A stretch of 58,556 nucleotides of DNA from Gracilibacillus sp. YIM 98692. Lineage in GTDB: Bacteria > Bacillota > Bacilli > Bacillales > Amphibacillaceae. Position 1 is the first letter of the stretch. Each line of letters opens with the position of its first letter. The stretch covers positions 1 through 58,556 of the forward strand of contig NZ_WIXM01000024.1 of NCBI RefSeq assembly GCF_010993965.1. The letters run 5' to 3'. The notes beneath the pieces are model-generated. The model was not told the origin of the DNA, did not search any database, and saw nothing but the letters and a program-made list of their open reading frames with translations. Made by a program: the position numbers and the translations under genes. Below are positions 7,551 through 16,453 of this stretch, in pieces.

Positions 7551-7688
7551 TATAAATTCTAGACAAAATGCAACCAGTCGCTTAATGACATAAAAAAGAG
7601 ATGAATATATAGAGGAGAATAGCGCCCTAGCTATAATTCATCTCAATTCCTTACAATTCTTTTTTTATACATGCTTATGTATTAGACA

Positions 7689-8645
7689 CTATTGCTTCGT
7701 AAACCCAGTTGCAATCACTGTCACGATAATTTCTTCTTTTAAGTTTTCATTTATTACGGACCCAAAGATCATGTTTAAATCATCATGAGTTGTCGAGGCT
7801 ATAATGTCTGCTGCTTCCTGCACTTCATAAAGGCTTAAATTATGTCCACCAGTAATGTTCATGATTACCCCTCTTGCACCGCTAATTGATGTCTCTAGTA
7901 AGGGACTGTTGATCGCTTTTTGTGCAGCTTCCATTGCACGAGTTTCCCCAGTAGCTATACCAATCCCCATTAACGCTGTTCCTTTATGTGACATCACTGT
8001 TTTGACATCAGCAAAATCAAGATTAATTAAACCTGGAATTGCAATTAAATCAGATATGCCTTGCACACCTCTTTGAAGAACATTATCTGCTTCCTTAAAT
8101 GCTTCAATCATCGGTGTTTTTTTACTAACAATTTCAATTAAACGTTCATTCGGAATGATTATTAATGTGTTTGCCGCCTCTCTCATTGCGTCAATCCCAT
8201 TCTTTGCGTTTACTGCTCTTTTGTTTCCTTCAAATTTGAATGGGCGTGTGACGACCCCTATCGTCAGTGCACCTAAATCTCTTGCAATTTCAGCGATCGC
8301 AGGGGCTGCCCCCGTTCCGGTACCACCACCCATACCTGCAGTTATAAATACCATATCTGCACCTTCTAATACTTCTTCGATTTCGTTTCTGCTTTCTACT
8401 ACTGCTTTTTTACCAATTTCTGGACTTGCACCTGCACCAAGTCCTCTTGTTAAAGATGCACCAATTTGTATAGTAAATTCCGCATTTGATTGATTAAGAG
8501 CTTGTCCATCAGTGTTCACTGCAATAAACTCCACACCTTCCACTCCCGTTTCAATCATTCGGTTCACTGCATTATTTCCACCGCCACCTACACCGATGAC
8601 CTTTATTTTAGCGAATTGATCAATATTTGTATCTAACCCAAACAT
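7689..8645 (-). CDS. FtsZ paralogue lacking the C-terminal linker and tail
   Basis: This is a tubulin-superfamily GTPase of 318 residues. The nucleotide site is intact: [10 protein letters not shown] at about 18-27, NTDGQAL near 44-50, and the signature [11 protein letters not shown] near 103. The T7 synergy loop [11 protein letters not shown], which completes the active site of the next subunit, is also intact, so polymerisation with GTP hydrolysis is expected. The protein ends at VIATGF, where housekeeping FtsZ continues with a linker and the conserved tail that binds FtsA, SepF, ZapA or EzrA. It is therefore unlikely to replace cell-division FtsZ, which would be encoded in the dcw cluster outside this window. 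The ribosome binding site AAGGAGG is excellent. It lies 37 bases behind a TPR/helical protein gene. Confidence 0.88.
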
Positions 8646-8682
8646 GTGTATCCTCCTTACTTCTATATGATTCCTGCTTGTA

Positions 8683-10827
8683 CTACACTTTTGGGACAGT
8701 ATTCTTCTCAGCAGGCAACATCAATTCATATTGTCGTGTTCTTATTTCAAAAAGGATTAATGGATCAAAATAGACTTCCGGATTTGTCTTCAGTATGTTT
8801 AACGATTCTTTATCCGTTTCAATCATTTGTTCACAATCTAGGATTGCTTCTTTTAAAACGTTAAATGGTTCTCTGAAAAACATGTTAACCTCACGTGTTA
8901 TTGATTTCTCAAATAATTCAAACGGCATCATAAACTGGCTGCTTATTGAGGCAACGACTTCATCATAGTTTCCCTTCTCTATGAACCTTCGATAAAGTTT
9001 GTAAAGATTTACTTTATTTGTTCGTAGGTACCCTATAAGTTTCCCGGAATTTTTTAATAGCAAAACGGTTGGATTAAACCCTGTAAGTATCGAGACACTA
9101 TCGATTTCAACGACGTTCGTCATTCGATCTGCGTCACGGATCCAGTCGTTTAAAACTTGAAAATCACAAGTTAATGTCAATTTATTTTCTTCATTTAAAG
9201 TATTAAAACCTTCAAACAATTCGTCTAAATAGGTTTGGCTTTCTGTAAATTCTTGTTCTGCAACCTTTACCCACTCATGAATCTCTTTAGAAAACTTCGG
9301 TAATATGGTTTGTTGAATATAAGATCGAACCACTTCGTTCATCTCTTTATTTAACACTTTATGTATGTTTCCTAAATTACTATTTTCATCAATCACATTG
9401 GAACATTCTCTTAAAAGAGTCGGAATCACCTCATTTAAGTTCTCTTTCATCTCATCTCTGATGATAAAAAAAGAGGTTGTAAGAGACTCCGATATTTCAT
9501 TCTCTATATCATGTAACTGATGAACCGCACCGTTTAGTTTAGAAGTAATTTCTTCATTCAATGCAATTGAATTTACTAATCTATTTTCCAATTCTACTCT
9601 CTTGCTATAAAGATGTTCTAGTGATTGTCGAATATAATACAATAATTTTTCAGAGTTTTCTTCCCGATGATCGCCTCTTGTTAATAAAGATGTAGCAAAC
9701 TCTGTTAAATCATCAAGCGGTTTGCTATCTTCTTCATCTAACCCATTCCTATTTGTCCACTTAGCAATTGATTCAAATAAATCCAGACTTTCACCTAAAA
9801 CATTATATACATTTTCGGAATAGTAAAAGATCTCTTCAGCTTCATTAACGACAGATGAATCTATACTTGAAGGGAAAAATTCACTCCACGAGATCACTGC
9901 TGCAGATACTACGACAGAATCAGAAGTGTCTTTTACTTCCATCCAATGTAATAATAGAGTTGGAACAATATCTGAAAGTTGTTTTATAGAATAATTTTTC
10001 CTAAACAATTCTGTGTATGTCCACTGAAAAAGGTTTGATAGTTCTCCGCAACTTTTAAAATCGGAAGTGTCTACCTGTTGGAAATGGTCATTAAAAACTT
10101 TCACCCACGAAAGATACTGTTGGTCTGGCTTATAAGTTTTCCATAGTGATTTAGATAGATCAACAAACAATAATTGATCAATAGAATATAAAGCTTGTAA
10201 TATTTTAGTGAAATAATCCGGTGCAATTCTTTTTGCATTTCCTTCATCAATATAGATTTTTAATCGTTCGTACCATTCAATCGAGTTTGTCCGAAGGGCC
10301 TCATTAACTGCGAGATCAATAGCATTCTCCCAATCTTGGTATCTTTCAAAGAAAGAGCAAGCAATGGTTGTTACATTTGGATGGTCCGGGTTAAGCGAAA
10401 TTACATTCTTAACTACTTTCGTTGCCATATCTAAGTAACCCTTCTCAACATATATGTAAAATAAATTTAACTCAACCTCTGTATTTAATATTAAGTTATC
10501 TGAATGAATCGACTTGTAAATATTCTCTGCGTACACTAATTGACCAAGTTCATAGTAAGCATCAGCCTTATTTTTCTCAGCCCATTGTTCAAGTTCACCG
10601 TAAATATTCTCCCATTTAAAAATGGCCGCCTCAAAATCTTTATAATGAAAATACAATTCACCTTGCGAAAAACGAAGTTCTTCATCAGTAGTTAGTAATT
10701 CATCCTTTTGTCCAATCATTTGCATTTCTGCTAGGGCCTTAAGTGGATTATTTGTTGGATTTTCTATTACAAATTGTTTATAGTAAGTCTTTGAATTCAA
10801 TGCATTCTCTACTGTCATAAGTATCAC
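8683..10827 (-). CDS. TPR and helical protein, possibly a GTPase-less dynamin relative
   Basis: The protein has 714 residues, no signal peptide and no clear transmembrane helix. Residues about 40-200 look like tetratricopeptide repeats (for example [20 protein letters not shown]). From about residue 390 to the end it is long helical sequence with heptad-like regions ([15 protein letters not shown]) and one moderately hydrophobic stretch, [20 protein letters not shown]. From memory this layout resembles large bacterial dynamin-family proteins of Bacillaceae, but no P-loop (GxxxxGKS/T) or other GTPase motif is visible. The GTG at 10827 follows AAGGGA with 5 bases of spacing; the ATG at 10818 is the alternative. 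It forms a likely two-gene unit with the FtsZ paralogue. The dynamin link is an inference. Confidence 0.6.
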
Positions 10828-11472: not shown

Positions 11473-13011
11473 TCAAGTTATTGGGGCGGGATTGAACAAG
11501 CTTAAGTCATTATGAAGTCCCCAATGATCCGCCCACGTTTGCTTACGTCCGCTAGCAACATCTAACATAAAATGAAATATATCCCATCCTACTTCTTCTA
11601 TGGTGGCCTGACCGGTGGCTATTTGTCCTGCATTAATATCAATTAAATCCATCCACTGCTCCTTAAGCGAATTCCGAGTAGAGACTTTAACTACCGGGGC
11701 CATTTGTAAGCCATACGGTGTTCCACGTCCTGTAGTAAAGATTTGCATGTGCATGCCAGAAGCCAACTGCAACGTACCACAAACAAAGTCACTTGCAGGT
11801 GTAGCAGCAAATATTAGGCCTTTTTTCTTCACCTTTTCACCAGATGATAACACACCTGAGATTGGGCTTCTTCCAGATTTAGCGATGGAACCAAGTGATT
11901 TTTCGACAACATTGACTAATCCGCCTTTTTTATTTCCAGGGGTTGGATTTGCGCTTCGGTCTGCTTCACCTTTTTGCAAATAATCATCATACCATTTCAT
12001 TTCGTCAATTAAGGCACGACCTACTTCTTCATTAATCGCTCGTGGTGTTAATAGATGAACGCCATCTCGAACTTCTGTTACTTCCGAAAATAAAACTGTT
12101 GCACCTGCACGCACTAATAAATCAGCAGCATAACCTACTGCCGGATTGGCAGTTACACCGGAGAATGCATCACTGCCCCCGCATTGCAATCCAATTACTA
12201 AATCAGAAACTGGACAAGTAACTCTCTCACGCTCGTTTAGTTTTTGCAAACGTTCTTCTGCCATTTTCATTACCGATTCAACCATTCTGTTAAAACCTTG
12301 TTGATCTTGAAGGGAAATAATATTTGCTTCTGGATTATCACCTGGTATTAAACGCTCAGGAAATAATTTCTCACAGCCTAACCCAACCACCATTACTTCT
12401 CCACCAAAGTTGGGATGTGTGGCCAGATTTTGAATAGTCCGAATAGGAATATTTGCTTCAGGTGCATTGATTGCTACACCACATCCATAGGTATGATTTA
12501 GTGCGACAACATCATCAACATTTGGATACTTCGGTAATATTTCCTGCTTGATTTTATTAACAGTATAATTAAGAACTCCCGCTACACACTGAACGCTCGT
12601 TGTAATGCCTAAAATATTTTTTATTCCGGCACTTCCATCTGCATTTCGATAACCTTGAAACGTATAACCTTCAAGAGGTGACTGTTCTGCATTTGACCTT
12701 GTTGCAATCGGAAGTTTCTCTAATGCTGGAGGAGTCGGAAGCTGTACATATTTCTCCTTCACCCAGCTTCCTCTTTTTATCGGAACCGCTGCATAGCCGA
12801 TTACTTCACCGTAACGAATAATCTCCTGACCCTGTTTTAAATCTGCAAGGGTAACTTTATGTCCCCCGGGGATAAACTCCCGCAATTTTAACCCACAAGA
12901 AAAAATAGTACCTTCCTTAAGCCCAACGGAATTAACAATCGTCGCAACATTATCCATTTCATTTATTCTTATATAAAGAGGGATTTCGTTTTCCGTTTTT
13001 TCTAATGCCAT
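11473..13011 (-). CDS. garD: Galactarate dehydratase (D-galactarate to 5-dehydro-4-deoxyglucarate)
   Basis: This is a UxaA/GarD-family dehydratase with an N-terminal SAF domain and a large C-terminal domain. Family-typical segments are [61 protein letters not shown] and [10 protein letters not shown]. It closely follows E. coli GarD throughout. I chose the ATG at 13011 because AAAGGAG lies 9 bases before it, the length (512) matches GarD (about 520), and alignment starts there. An open frame continues 43 codons upstream to a GTG at 13140, with no similarity and a poor ribosome site. It is the last gene of the hexarate operon. Its product is the substrate of KdgD. Confidence 0.88.
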
Positions 13012-13287
13012 ATCATATTTCTCCTTTCTACAAACTAATAAATACTGACATCCTCCCCTATTAAAATAAGGATCTAAAGCTGCTGCAAAGCTTGGATTGA
13101 TGTCCTTTGGTAGTAGGAAGAAGAATTGCTTATCAGACACAAATTCATTACCGTTTAGTGGAATTCCTTATTCTGTAAATATAAGTATATTTTACGCGTT
13201 TTAAAAACTTAGAAGTTGAATATAATTAAACAGCATTGTGTGGAAGATGGAGAGGTAATAAAAACCGATTAGATTGAACAATAGTTT

Positions 13288-14751
13288 TTATTTTACAAAC
13301 ACTGTTTTAATGGATGTGAAAAACTCAATTGCGGCTTGACCTTGTTCACGGGAATGAGAACTGGATTGTTTCATACCACCAAAGGGTGCTTGCAGCTCAA
13401 CGCCTGCACTCTCTGCATTAATGCGAACGAGACCAGAGTCCATTTCATTAATAAAGGATAGCATTTGTTGGATATTTGTAGTAAAGATAGAAGCGCTCAA
13501 TCCAAATTCCGCATCATTAGCTACTTCCAATGCTTCTTCAATGGTATCTACTTTCATAAGTGCAAGAACAGGTCCAAAAATTTCTTCCTGTGCAATTGTC
13601 ATATCAGTGGTTACATTTTCAAATATGGTTGGTTGGACAAAATAACCTTTATCATACGCTTCACCTGAAAGTCTCTCACCGCCTAAAAGTAGAGATGCAC
13701 CTTCATCGATGCCTTTTTGTATATAGGAAAGTACTGTGTTTAATTGATTTTCACTTGCACTTGGGCCCATCCAAATACCTTTCTCGAGACCATTTCCAAT
13801 TGTAATTTCCTTAACTTTAGTGAGAAGCTTCTCCTTAAACGATTCATAAACATCGTTTTGCACAATAACACGGCTAGTGGCTGTACATTTCTGCCCAGTT
13901 GATCGTAGTCCACCGCTAATAGTCGCTTCTACAGCAAGGTCAAGATCAGCATCTGCACTTACAATGACAGGGTTTTTTCCACCCATTTCCAATTGGTATT
14001 TTCCACCTCGAGCTAGTACTAATTGCCCAATTTGTTTTCCTACACGATTAGAACCTGTAAATGTAATGCCATTTACATCAGGGTGTTCAGCTAACCCCTG
14101 ACCAATAACAGAACCAGCACCTGTAATCATATTTACCACACCAGATGGAAACCCAGCTTCTGCAAAGCATTCAAATACCTTTGCACAAGTTACGGCTGTT
14201 TCTGTGGCAGGTTTTAGAACAACGGTGTTTCCATAAATTAATGCAGGTGCAGCTTTCCAAATTGGAATGGCAACAGGAAAGTTCCAAGGAGTAATGACAC
14301 CAACAACACCTAATGGCGCTCGAGTAGTAAACATTAAGGCATCTTTGTCTGTTGAAGGAATCACATCTCCTACTTTTCGTAGTCCTTCACCAGCATAATA
14401 TCGAAGAATAGCTACTCCACGAGCTGTTTCGCCTTTCGCTTCCGGAAGTGTTTTTCCCATTTCTCTCGTCATTGTTTCGGCAATTTCGTCGATCCGACTC
14501 TCAAGAATATCTGCTGCTTTATAGAGGAATTTTCCTCTTGCATCTCCAGATAATTTCTTCCATTTTTTTTGAGCTAACTTCGCTACAGCTACTGCTTCGT
14601 TTAGATCTCCTGTTGTTGACTTTTGCACATGACCAATGACATCTTCAATATTGGCAGGATTCTTATTTTCAATCACTTCGTCTGCATTAGATTCCACCCA
14701 CTTGCCATTAATATAGTTCAAATATAGATTTTTTTTGGTTTGTAATTCCAT
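13288..14751 (-). CDS. 2-oxoglutarate semialdehyde dehydrogenase
   Basis: This 487-residue aldehyde dehydrogenase is complete, with Asn157 (TPWNF), Lys180, Glu255 (QLEMGGKNP) and the nucleophile Cys289 ([10 protein letters not shown]). By position between KdgD and GarD it should oxidise 2,5-dioxopentanoate to 2-oxoglutarate, the last step of hexarate breakdown, like B. subtilis YcbD. The sequence alone cannot exclude another aldehyde substrate. It starts 39 bases after the KdgD stop. A gap of 276 bases separates it from the preferred GarD start, so GarD might also have its own promoter. Confidence 0.83.
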
Positions 14752-14790
14752 TGTTCACACTCCTAACGTCACTAAATTTGTTCTATCTTT

Positions 14791-15720
14791 TTAAAGTGAT
14801 ACTTTATGATCTGCTGGATATTTTTCTAAAGCTTGCTTTAACACCTTTTCCAGTTCCTTATAGTGCTCCTGTTCAACTGGAACAATCGGTGGCCTAACCG
14901 CTGTACTTACTGGTAACCCCATAATTTCCATACCTGCCTTAATTAACGAAACAGCGTACCCTTTACGCTTTTTTCGTATACCGTTTATAGGTAAAATAAC
15001 ATCTTCGTAAATATCGCGTACGAGTTGTTTATCCTTATTTAATAGTGCTTGATAGAACATTCTAGAAATATGAGGAATATAGTTTGATATGGCTGATGAA
15101 TAAGAATCAAAACCTAATGGTAAGTATGCCGGCATGGTTACTTCAGCCATAGGCATACCATTTAGCCAACCTAAACGATCTCCAATCGTTTGCGTCAATT
15201 CAATGTTTAAATCCATATTACCAATTCCATCTTTCACACCTACTACTTGCGGGAATTCCATAAGCTTCATTAAAGCATCTAATTGTAAGACAGCATTTGC
15301 TCTTTGGTATAAAATAGCATTCAAATCAGTGCTTTGAATAATTGACTTGTAGTATTCACATAGACCTTTTTGCTCTCCTTCAATTAAATACGGTGGTAAG
15401 ATTAAATAACCATCTGCACCTAATTTCTCTGAAATATAAGCCTTCTCAATGGCATCAGCTGAATTTCCACCCACTCCTGTATATACAGGGACATTGTCAG
15501 CTGCTACAGAAACGGCGATTTCCAACATTTTTTCATATTCTTTTGAGCTAATCGCATGAAATTCGCCTGAGCCACAAGCAATAAAAATGGCCTCTAACCC
15601 GTTGTCTACTAAAAATTCAATATTACTTATTAGGCTGTTTTCACAAATTTTCCCATCTTCCTTAAATGGTGTAACAGGGAATCCTAGAATACCTGTGGGT
15701 GCTTTTCTTTGATTTGACAT
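14791..15720 (-). CDS. kdgD: 5-dehydro-4-deoxyglucarate dehydratase
   Basis: This class I aldolase-fold (DapA/NanA superfamily) enzyme of 310 residues decarboxylates and dehydrates 5-dehydro-4-deoxyglucarate to 2,5-dioxopentanoate. Lys163 in GVKDGIGN is the Schiff-base lysine and Tyr138 in LYQR the catalytic tyrosine; the N-terminal GILGFPVTPF is typical of KdgD. I chose the ATG at 15720, preceded by AAAGGG. An in-frame ATG at 15771 would run into the end of the regulator gene and add 17 residues not found in relatives. It lies 28 bases after the GntR regulator gene. Confidence 0.87.
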   Translation of the reverse strand: MSNQRKAPTGILGFPVTPFKEDGKICENSLISNIEFLVDNGLEAIFIACGSGEFHAISSKEYEKMLEIAVSVAADNVPVYTGVGGNSADAIEKAYISEKLGADGYLILPPYLIEGEQKGLCEYYKSIIQSTDLNAILYQRANAVLQLDALMKLMEFPQVVGVKDGIGNMDLNIELTQTIGDRLGWLNGMPMAEVTMPAYLPLGFDSYSSAISNYIPHISRMFYQALLNKDKQLVRDIYEDVILPINGIRKKRKGYAVSLIKAGMEIMGLPVSTAVRPPIVPVEQEHYKELEKVLKQALEKYPADHKVSL

Positions 15721-15748
15721 TTTTTCAACCCTTTCACTTTGGAATTTT

Positions 15749-16453
15749 TTATTTATTATAAAGACTTGCAATAAGTCTTTTCCTCGCGTGATCTAGGTGT
15801 CGGTACATGGATAAATAGGACTCGATTGGATCTCTGCTTTCTAAGGCATCATAAATTTGTTTATGCTGCTTCACAGTAAAGTTCTTATCTTTATCCTCAC
15901 TTGGAATAATTCTAAACATTTCATCAAACATATTGAGTAATGGATCGATAATTCCTTCAGTTATGGAATTACAGGCACTATAAGCGATAATCTGATGGAA
16001 CTCTTTATCTATTTCTCTATGATCTCCCTGTAGATTTTCCATTAGCTCAATATTTTCCCGTAACCTCTGCAAATCGTTATCCGTTATTTTTTCAGCAGCT
16101 AATGAAACGAGTCCCAACTCTTGAGACATTCGTGTTTCTGCAATAGCTCTCATATTTCCTGCAGATAATGACAGCATAATTTCATATGGCTTACTCCAAA
16201 TTTTATTGGTAAAATAAGTTCCTTCCCTAGTTTTCCTACGGACAACTCCAATCGTTTCTAAAGAACTTATAGCTTCTCTCAATACCGGTCTGCTTACTTG
16301 GAACTTATCCAGCAGATCCATTTCTGGAGGAAGTTTGTCTCCTGGTTTTAGTTGACCACTTATAAGAAAATGTATAATTTGATCGATTACTTGATTAGAT
16401 AAAGTATCTCGTTTAACAGATTTTATATCCAAATTATTCGTATCTTTTTGCAA
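15749..16453 (-). CDS. GntR/FadR-subfamily regulator of the hexarate operon
   Basis: The 234-residue protein has an N-terminal winged helix (residues about 15-85, with KLPPEMDLLDKFQVSRPVLR) and a C-terminal FCD ligand-binding domain. The FCD histidines EFHQI, KQHKQI and YRHLDH probably hold a metal and the effector. It is the first gene of the operon, so autoregulation is likely. Two TTGT(N3)ACAA palindromes lie in its own promoter. By analogy with the B. subtilis ycb locus, the effector may be an aldaric acid or a pathway intermediate. Repressor rather than activator is inferred from one operator sitting on the -10. Confidence 0.8.
   Translation of the reverse strand: MQKDTNNLDIKSVKRDTLSNQVIDQIIHFLISGQLKPGDKLPPEMDLLDKFQVSRPVLREAISSLETIGVVRRKTREGTYFTNKIWSKPYEIMLSLSAGNMRAIAETRMSQELGLVSLAAEKITDNDLQRLRENIELMENLQGDHREIDKEFHQIIAYSACNSITEGIIDPLLNMFDEMFRIIPSEDKDKNFTVKQHKQIYDALESRDPIESYLSMYRHLDHARKRLIASLYNK

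Follow-up and report, generated by a model that had tools for sequence, protein, structure and literature searches.

The window, the whole 58,556-nucleotide stretch of Gracilibacillus sp. YIM 98692 DNA analysed here, carries two open genes on the minus strand that lie 37 bases apart, the larger one first. An earlier note described them as an FtsZ that stops at its core and a 714-residue protein lacking a P-loop, and both sequence and profiles confirmed this. We refer to the genes as ftsZ2 and dlp. The features of the locus are as follows.

7689..8645, minus strand: ftsZ2, a tail-less FtsZ paralogue of 318 aa, assigned by profile matches and by its place in a second-FtsZ clade
8646..8682, no strand: 37-base spacer carrying the ftsZ2 ribosome site (36 bases in genome G244)
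8683..10827, minus strand: dlp, a TPR/dynamin-like protein of 714 aa without a GTPase, assigned from relatives, alignments and tree
9799..10782, minus strand: TPR half, residues 13-340 counted from the ATG, from predicted helix pairs and structural neighbours that are largely TPR proteins
9667..9738, minus strand: site of the missing dynamin GTPase of ~190 residues, at residues 361-384, from alignments with GTPase-bearing relatives
8722..9666, minus strand: long-helix half, residues 385-699, from structure prediction; probably dynamin-stalk-like
8965..9195, minus strand: tip between the long helices, residues 542-618, with a hydrophobic patch; possible membrane paddle
7598..7644, minus strand: inverted repeat followed by T's behind ftsZ2, found by eye; possible terminator

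The dlp start is a GTG, giving 714 aa, and an in-frame ATG at 10818 would give 711 aa. The ftsZ2 start is an ATG with AAGGAGG upstream. The terminator scan listed no terminator in the spacer, and since the ftsZ2 ribosome site also lies inside this gap, the two genes are likely co-transcribed. The terminator call behind ftsZ2 is weak because it was made by eye and is absent from the terminator-scan list.

In the window the pair is flanked by a ZnuA/ABC-3 transporter and, at 11473-16453, by sugar-acid genes (galactarate/altronate dehydratase-like, aldehyde dehydrogenase, DHDPS family and a GntR regulator). At E 1e-100 the dehydratase-like gene matched nothing in the 16 further genomes of the genus that were searched, so this region may be acquired. 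Four relatives in the genus with the transporter gene showed no empty insertion site, and the genes behind their transporter matched no gene of the window.

The FtsZ core and its clade

FtsZ2 scored 432 bits against TIGR00065 (cut-off 295) and matched the Pfam Tubulin and FtsZ_C domains, with the protein stopping at the end of FtsZ_C. Residues 3-318 align to residues 3-318 of the solved FtsZ 2vam, a protein of 382 aa, which leaves the protein short of a linker and tail of about 64 residues, including the C-terminal conserved peptide for FtsA and SepF. When the 400 bases behind the stop were inspected by eye in three frames, we saw no remnant of a tail. The GGGTGTG motif is intact, as is the T7 loop NLDFADV at residue 208, whose NxDxxD pattern holds the catalytic acids of FtsZ. 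The core is 72% identical to the division FtsZ of the same genome, a tailed protein of 379 aa encoded directly behind ftsA (L001); ftsZ2 is not beside ftsA. We also observed a third tubulin-family protein in this genome (L003, C34:82302-85817; 448 aa) with a TubZ_C domain (Pfam 2.1e-13), so the cell encodes FtsZ, FtsZ2 and a TubZ-like protein.

The FtsZ2 label was assigned before trees were built; 28 of the 48 second FtsZs were then placed in a 52-row tree, the other 20 being classed by score alone. We found that 24 of the 28 cluster together, separate from the division FtsZs (87/90). Those of G076, G485 and G504 sit on a separate long branch away from the 24, and that of G152 falls among division FtsZs, as a copy of its own division FtsZ and not an FtsZ2. 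No ftsA-like gene was seen near FtsZ2 at 20 loci (L112-L131) or at L057. The tail and its usual end peptide are retained in several FtsZ2 lineages, and others stop at or soon after the core, which suggests that tail loss is derived and probably repeated. The fewest changes in tail state on the 52-row tree are four, with the tail-less class including truncated forms of 334-340 aa (the G319 group and G504). Four tailed FtsZ2s (L114, L115, L120 and L128) carry variable-length QQ- or YDRY-type repeats ahead of the end peptide, a feature not seen in the division FtsZ tails that were read. G527:C1 has three FtsZ genes, namely the division copy, an FtsZ2 with a tail and another whose frame spans 321 aa.

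Anatomy and descent of the large protein

Profile searches with dlp alone returned sub-cut-off TPR matches and no GTPase match. In its predicted structure (mean pLDDT 83.3, pTM 0.54) the helix pairs of a TPR superhelix run to about residue 340 and are followed by very long helices, predicted at residues 385-475, 485-541, 619-677 and 686-699, with the tip at 542-618 less certain. Given the tandem TPR helix pairs of this model, dlp is a TPR protein. A structure search gave two lists whose best 50 matches were largely TPR proteins and included no dynamin, an absence that carries no weight because both lists were filled by the TPR half. The model of a long relative from Neobacillus novalis (mean pLDDT 77.1) shows the same long helices and, between, an alpha/beta domain of poor model quality. 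The hydrophobic patch previously described was found in the C-terminal part at residues 569-588, where it is mild (mean hydropathy 1.29); residues 301-319 in the TPR half are nearly equal (1.27).

Homologues of dlp are present in 12 of 17 genomes of the genus, in 196 of the 397 genomes of the order sample and in 63 of 159 of the family, the last count including three weak or fragmentary homologues (G019, G061 and G140). Two sizes occur in Bacillales. The form of ~920 aa is longer by about 200 residues, which lie between the TPR and long-helix halves and often bear P-loop, D-x-PG and K-x-D motifs, and these GTPase-bearing relatives align colinearly with dlp on either side of the gap. Alignment A3 has 12 members, the window's dlp among them, and in 10 the extra stretch matched Dynamin_N (best 3.6e-11). 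The best solved match of a profile of this stretch was 2j68 (2.6e-9), a bacterial dynamin-like protein from Nostoc, followed by Fzo1 and, lower, IniA. The PADLOC LeoBC model gave 0.0085 for dlp and 2.6e-8 for the relative L173, in the latter case inside its GTPase. The kinship to dynamins that had been proposed for this protein is supported, more strongly than the sequence alone could show, in that the long relatives have a dynamin GTPase precisely where the two halves join. By alignment and tree, dlp shares its descent with GTPase-bearing forms. It is a dynamin relative without a GTPase, and not a dynamin by definition, since the Dynamin_N stretch of its relatives is missing.

Named relatives were found with alignment A1 as query at 11 loci (L172-L182), in Neobacillus, Peribacillus, Alkalihalobacillus, Halalkalibacter, Fredinandcohnia and records named Bacillus sp. 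and Paenibacillus sp.; querying with the dlp protein alone found none. All 11 are long forms, five of them with degenerate GTPase motifs, and no FtsZ lies in their 6 kb flanks.

Motif scores divided 106 rows of the family into 31 with an intact GTPase, 5 partial, 37 degenerate and 33 without the domain. Presence or absence of the domain requires at least 4 changes on a 62-row tree built without the columns of the GTPase domain. Intact or partial versus the rest requires 15 changes on the best 106-row tree, 8 of them forced by supported branches; this tree was inferred under a plain model, and the software flagged adjoining long branches in it. Left out of it were four split frames, L092 and L093 (from G001 and G082), L218 (G499) and L245 (G391), and L105, a duplicate of L113. 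The split dlp frames of G055 and G157 also lie outside the 106 rows, and G499 and G391 have tail-less FtsZ2 with degenerate motifs. Eroded intermediates such as an 851-aa form argue for loss rather than gain. Absence of the GTPase thus appears to be recurrent across the dlp family, with loss as the probable direction.

Two genomes each hold two dlp homologues, one without a GTPase and one of 851 aa whose GTPase is shrunken (G065, L062 and L090; G086, L070 and L091). Two f19 genomes have a second, very distant homologue of ~930 aa with ~24% identity (G176:C6:83164 and G219:C25:35944).

Recurrence, transfer and co-occurrence of the two genes

In G244, a genome of another family, a GTPase-less dlp of 711 aa (62% identity) lies 36 bases ahead of a tail-less FtsZ2 (84% identity), in the same gene order as in the window and among other neighbouring genes. 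The window and G244 are sisters in the FtsZ2 tree (98/92) and in the dlp tree (100), while in that FtsZ tree the division copy from the window's genome falls with its own family instead. It follows that ftsZ2 and dlp moved together. The window and G244 lie in the dlp tree beside the domain-bearing G279 (99-100); G279 joins them with 99 in that tree and weakly in the FtsZ2 tree (91/57), and its dlp has a degenerate GTPase and is unlinked to FtsZ. The proposal of a two-gene unit is thus supported by the recurrence in G244 and by the sister placement in both trees.

The expectation that the genes would stay adjacent in relatives failed for nearly all of them. Across 22 second-FtsZ neighbourhoods (the window, L057 and L112-L131) the pair is adjacent in two, the window and G244, and the other 20 hold no dlp. 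Around 18 other GTPase-less dlp forms (L059-L076, neighbourhoods of 15-19.5 kb) there was no FtsZ. No partner gene common to dlp loci was seen across 41 loci (the window and L057-L096), many of which have ABC-transporter-type matches, and small blocks are common to two to six of them. In four genomes of f1, dlp frames of 719-944 aa (L089, L090, L091 and L093) lie near a gene of cluster c11, whose copy in L090 is a SNF2-type helicase (SNF2_assoc, Helicase_C).

A plasmid or phage origin of dlp was rejected, as tblastn gave no match in 72,556 plasmid or 50,697 phage records, and two alignment queries found none in viral contigs. FtsZ2 had FtsZ-like matches in 117 plasmid records with a best identity of 75.5%, and none of the best 20 of the 117 was FtsZ2-like by identity.

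Co-occurrence was counted in the order sample of 397 genomes, a genome being scored as having a second FtsZ when it gave two or more FtsZ matches with an E of 1e-70 or lower; the genome lists were compiled by eye. We found dlp in 48 of 48 genomes with a second FtsZ versus 148 of 349 without (Fisher 7e-17, counted by eye). Counted by genus, dlp is in 13 of 13 versus 65 of 135 overall (4e-5). For four of the nine families with FtsZ2 the test is empty, every sampled genome having dlp. The five families in which dlp varies give a product of chances of 1.4e-5 counted by genome and 0.0017 with f19 taken by genus; with the whole of the window's own family put in, in a count that leaves out G152, the within-family product is 0.0013. 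In this fully sampled family G000 and G026 fit the co-occurrence, whereas G076, which has a tail-less FtsZ2-like gene and no dlp, does not.

The state of the two proteins was also compared. Of 21 rows with a tail-less FtsZ2, 18 have a dlp GTPase that is not intact, versus 0 of 10 with a tailed one (Fisher 6e-6, a raw value), the ten including G492, whose FtsZ2 is frameshifted. In three genomes (G026, G485 and G504) FtsZ2 is tail-less or truncated and the GTPase of dlp looks intact. In genus g89 the GTPase is kept in all three species read without FtsZ2, and is not in all seven read with a tail-less FtsZ2. Loss of the GTPase needs no FtsZ2, however, since no intact one is present in 47 of the 64 dlp rows whose genomes have no second FtsZ. 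Phylogenetically independent pairs, too few in number for a firm test, gave no significant result, either in second-FtsZ genomes (5 pairs; 3 the same way, 0 opposite, 2 tied) or across all rows (6 pairs; ~2.5 the same, 0.8 opposite). The FtsZ2 and dlp distances correlated over 22 genomes (r 0.53), and with one genome per genus the correlation was gone (14 genomes, r 0.15, p 0.21). We therefore rejected the idea that tail loss drives GTPase loss, as the raw association is unsupported after phylogenetic control, and we regard joint loss of tail and GTPase as a lead, not a result.

Both genes look to be under constraint from their sequences, with dN/dS obtained for 4 of 9 FtsZ2 pairs and 4 of 10 dlp pairs. 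Between the window and G244 the value is 0.117 for FtsZ2 and 0.22 for dlp (N half 0.15, C half 0.33); it is 0.011-0.017 in three f19 pairs of FtsZ2 and 0.08-0.10 in the three other dlp pairs. Split or stopped dlp frames occur in six genomes (G001, G055, G082, G157, G391 and G499) and FtsZ2 is frameshifted in G492, although assembly errors are possible; the system may be dispensable in these seven.

Interpretation and known systems

Our preferred reading, which we hold tentatively and at somewhat less than even confidence, is that dlp is a TPR/dynamin-stalk adaptor for a polymer of the tail-less FtsZ2, in a laterally moved and probably co-transcribed unit. Here dlp would descend from a Bacillales TPR-plus-dynamin-like protein that lost its GTPase and kept its TPR half and its long-helix half with the tip. 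FtsZ2 would have retained the polymerising GTPase core, with no tail for FtsA or SepF. The TPR half of dlp, or its stalk, would bind FtsZ2 filaments and the tip would bind membrane, with FtsZ2 assembly and GTP hydrolysis providing the dynamics. This is close to what the earlier note had proposed; the GTPase of the long relatives speaks for its dynamin kinship and G244 for its two-gene unit, while near absence of adjacency among relatives counts against it. The recurrence of the pair in another family hints at a small unrecognised cytoskeletal unit, and since a normal FtsZ is kept in the window's genome, a system apart from cell division is a fair inference.

A rather unlikely alternative is that dlp is a regulatory pseudo-GTPase working with a full dynamin elsewhere in the cell, with FtsZ2 a passenger neighbour. 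The genome does hold a 1210-aa frame with two Dynamin_N matches (at C12), and GTPase-less dlp occurs in many genomes without a second FtsZ, yet this explanation leaves the 48/48 co-occurrence and the joint move of both genes unexplained. We consider it slightly less probable again that FtsZ2 co-assembles with and modulates division FtsZ, with dlp stabilising the mixed ring. The close identity of the two cores would allow this, and DynA and DynB are described as stabilising FtsZ rings in Streptomyces sporulation in passages of PMC8748795, citing Schlimpert 2017; however, FtsZ2 lacks the tail that division partners bind, and its loci L112-L131 and L057 lack ftsA-like genes.

A bolder version of the preferred reading seems unlikely to us, a shade more so than the mixed ring. 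It holds that the Bacillales TPR-dynamin repeatedly passed its GTP-driven work to the second FtsZ, a "split dynamin" in which tail loss and GTPase loss would be one exchange, completed in the window's pair as one membrane-remodelling machine. That both genes are decaying remnants of an obsolete system, with tail and GTPase loss as erosion and adjacency an accident of transfer, is improbable, for although the repeated erosion of the GTPase (15 state changes, 8 forced) and the broken frames fit it, the window and G244 frames are both open with dN/dS of 0.12 and 0.22 and tail-less FtsZ2 in f19 is strongly constrained.

Neither the FtsZ2/dlp unit nor the second Bacillales FtsZ clade was described in passages of a review of FtsZ/tubulin evolution (PMC9871819) or among the open-access literature matches listed, which is no proof of absence. 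Dynamins and FtsZ are two of the great GTP-driven machines for bending or dividing membranes, and a GTPase-less dynamin descendant travelling with a tail-less FtsZ would directly test whether one can act as motor for the other. A second clade of FtsZ in Bacillales also comes to light here; it was unlinked to ftsA at the loci that were read, and the genomes that have it nearly always have the TPR-dynamin too.

Among known systems, FtsZm of magnetotactic bacteria lacks a tail. It has the same core as FtsZ2 (TIGR00065) and is also an additional copy, one that acts in biomineralisation according to passages of PMC7017999. FtsZ2 differs in belonging to a Bacillales paralogue clade and in having a dynamin relative as its putative partner. 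The bacterial dynamin-like protein 2j68, IniA and mitofusin/Fzo1 match the GTPase of the relatives by profile, and the long helices predicted for dlp, with a tip between, may resemble theirs; dlp differs from them in its N-terminal TPR half and in having no GTPase. Streptomyces DynA and DynB are dynamin relatives that act with FtsZ, and unlike the FtsZ2/dlp pair they act on division FtsZ in sporulation septation, as stated in parts of PMC8748795. In the Btub/Bklc operon of Prosthecobacter a TPR protein shares an operon with a tubulin-family polymer; here the layout is operon-like as judged from the genes. The passages of PMC5372463 that concern Bklc describe it as a kinesin-light-chain-like TPR protein, mention no dynamin stalk, and report that it binds both Btub filaments and lipid vesicles. 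The polymer there is tubulin and not FtsZ, and Bklc, as those passages present it, provides a precedent for a TPR protein that joins a tubulin-family filament to membrane.
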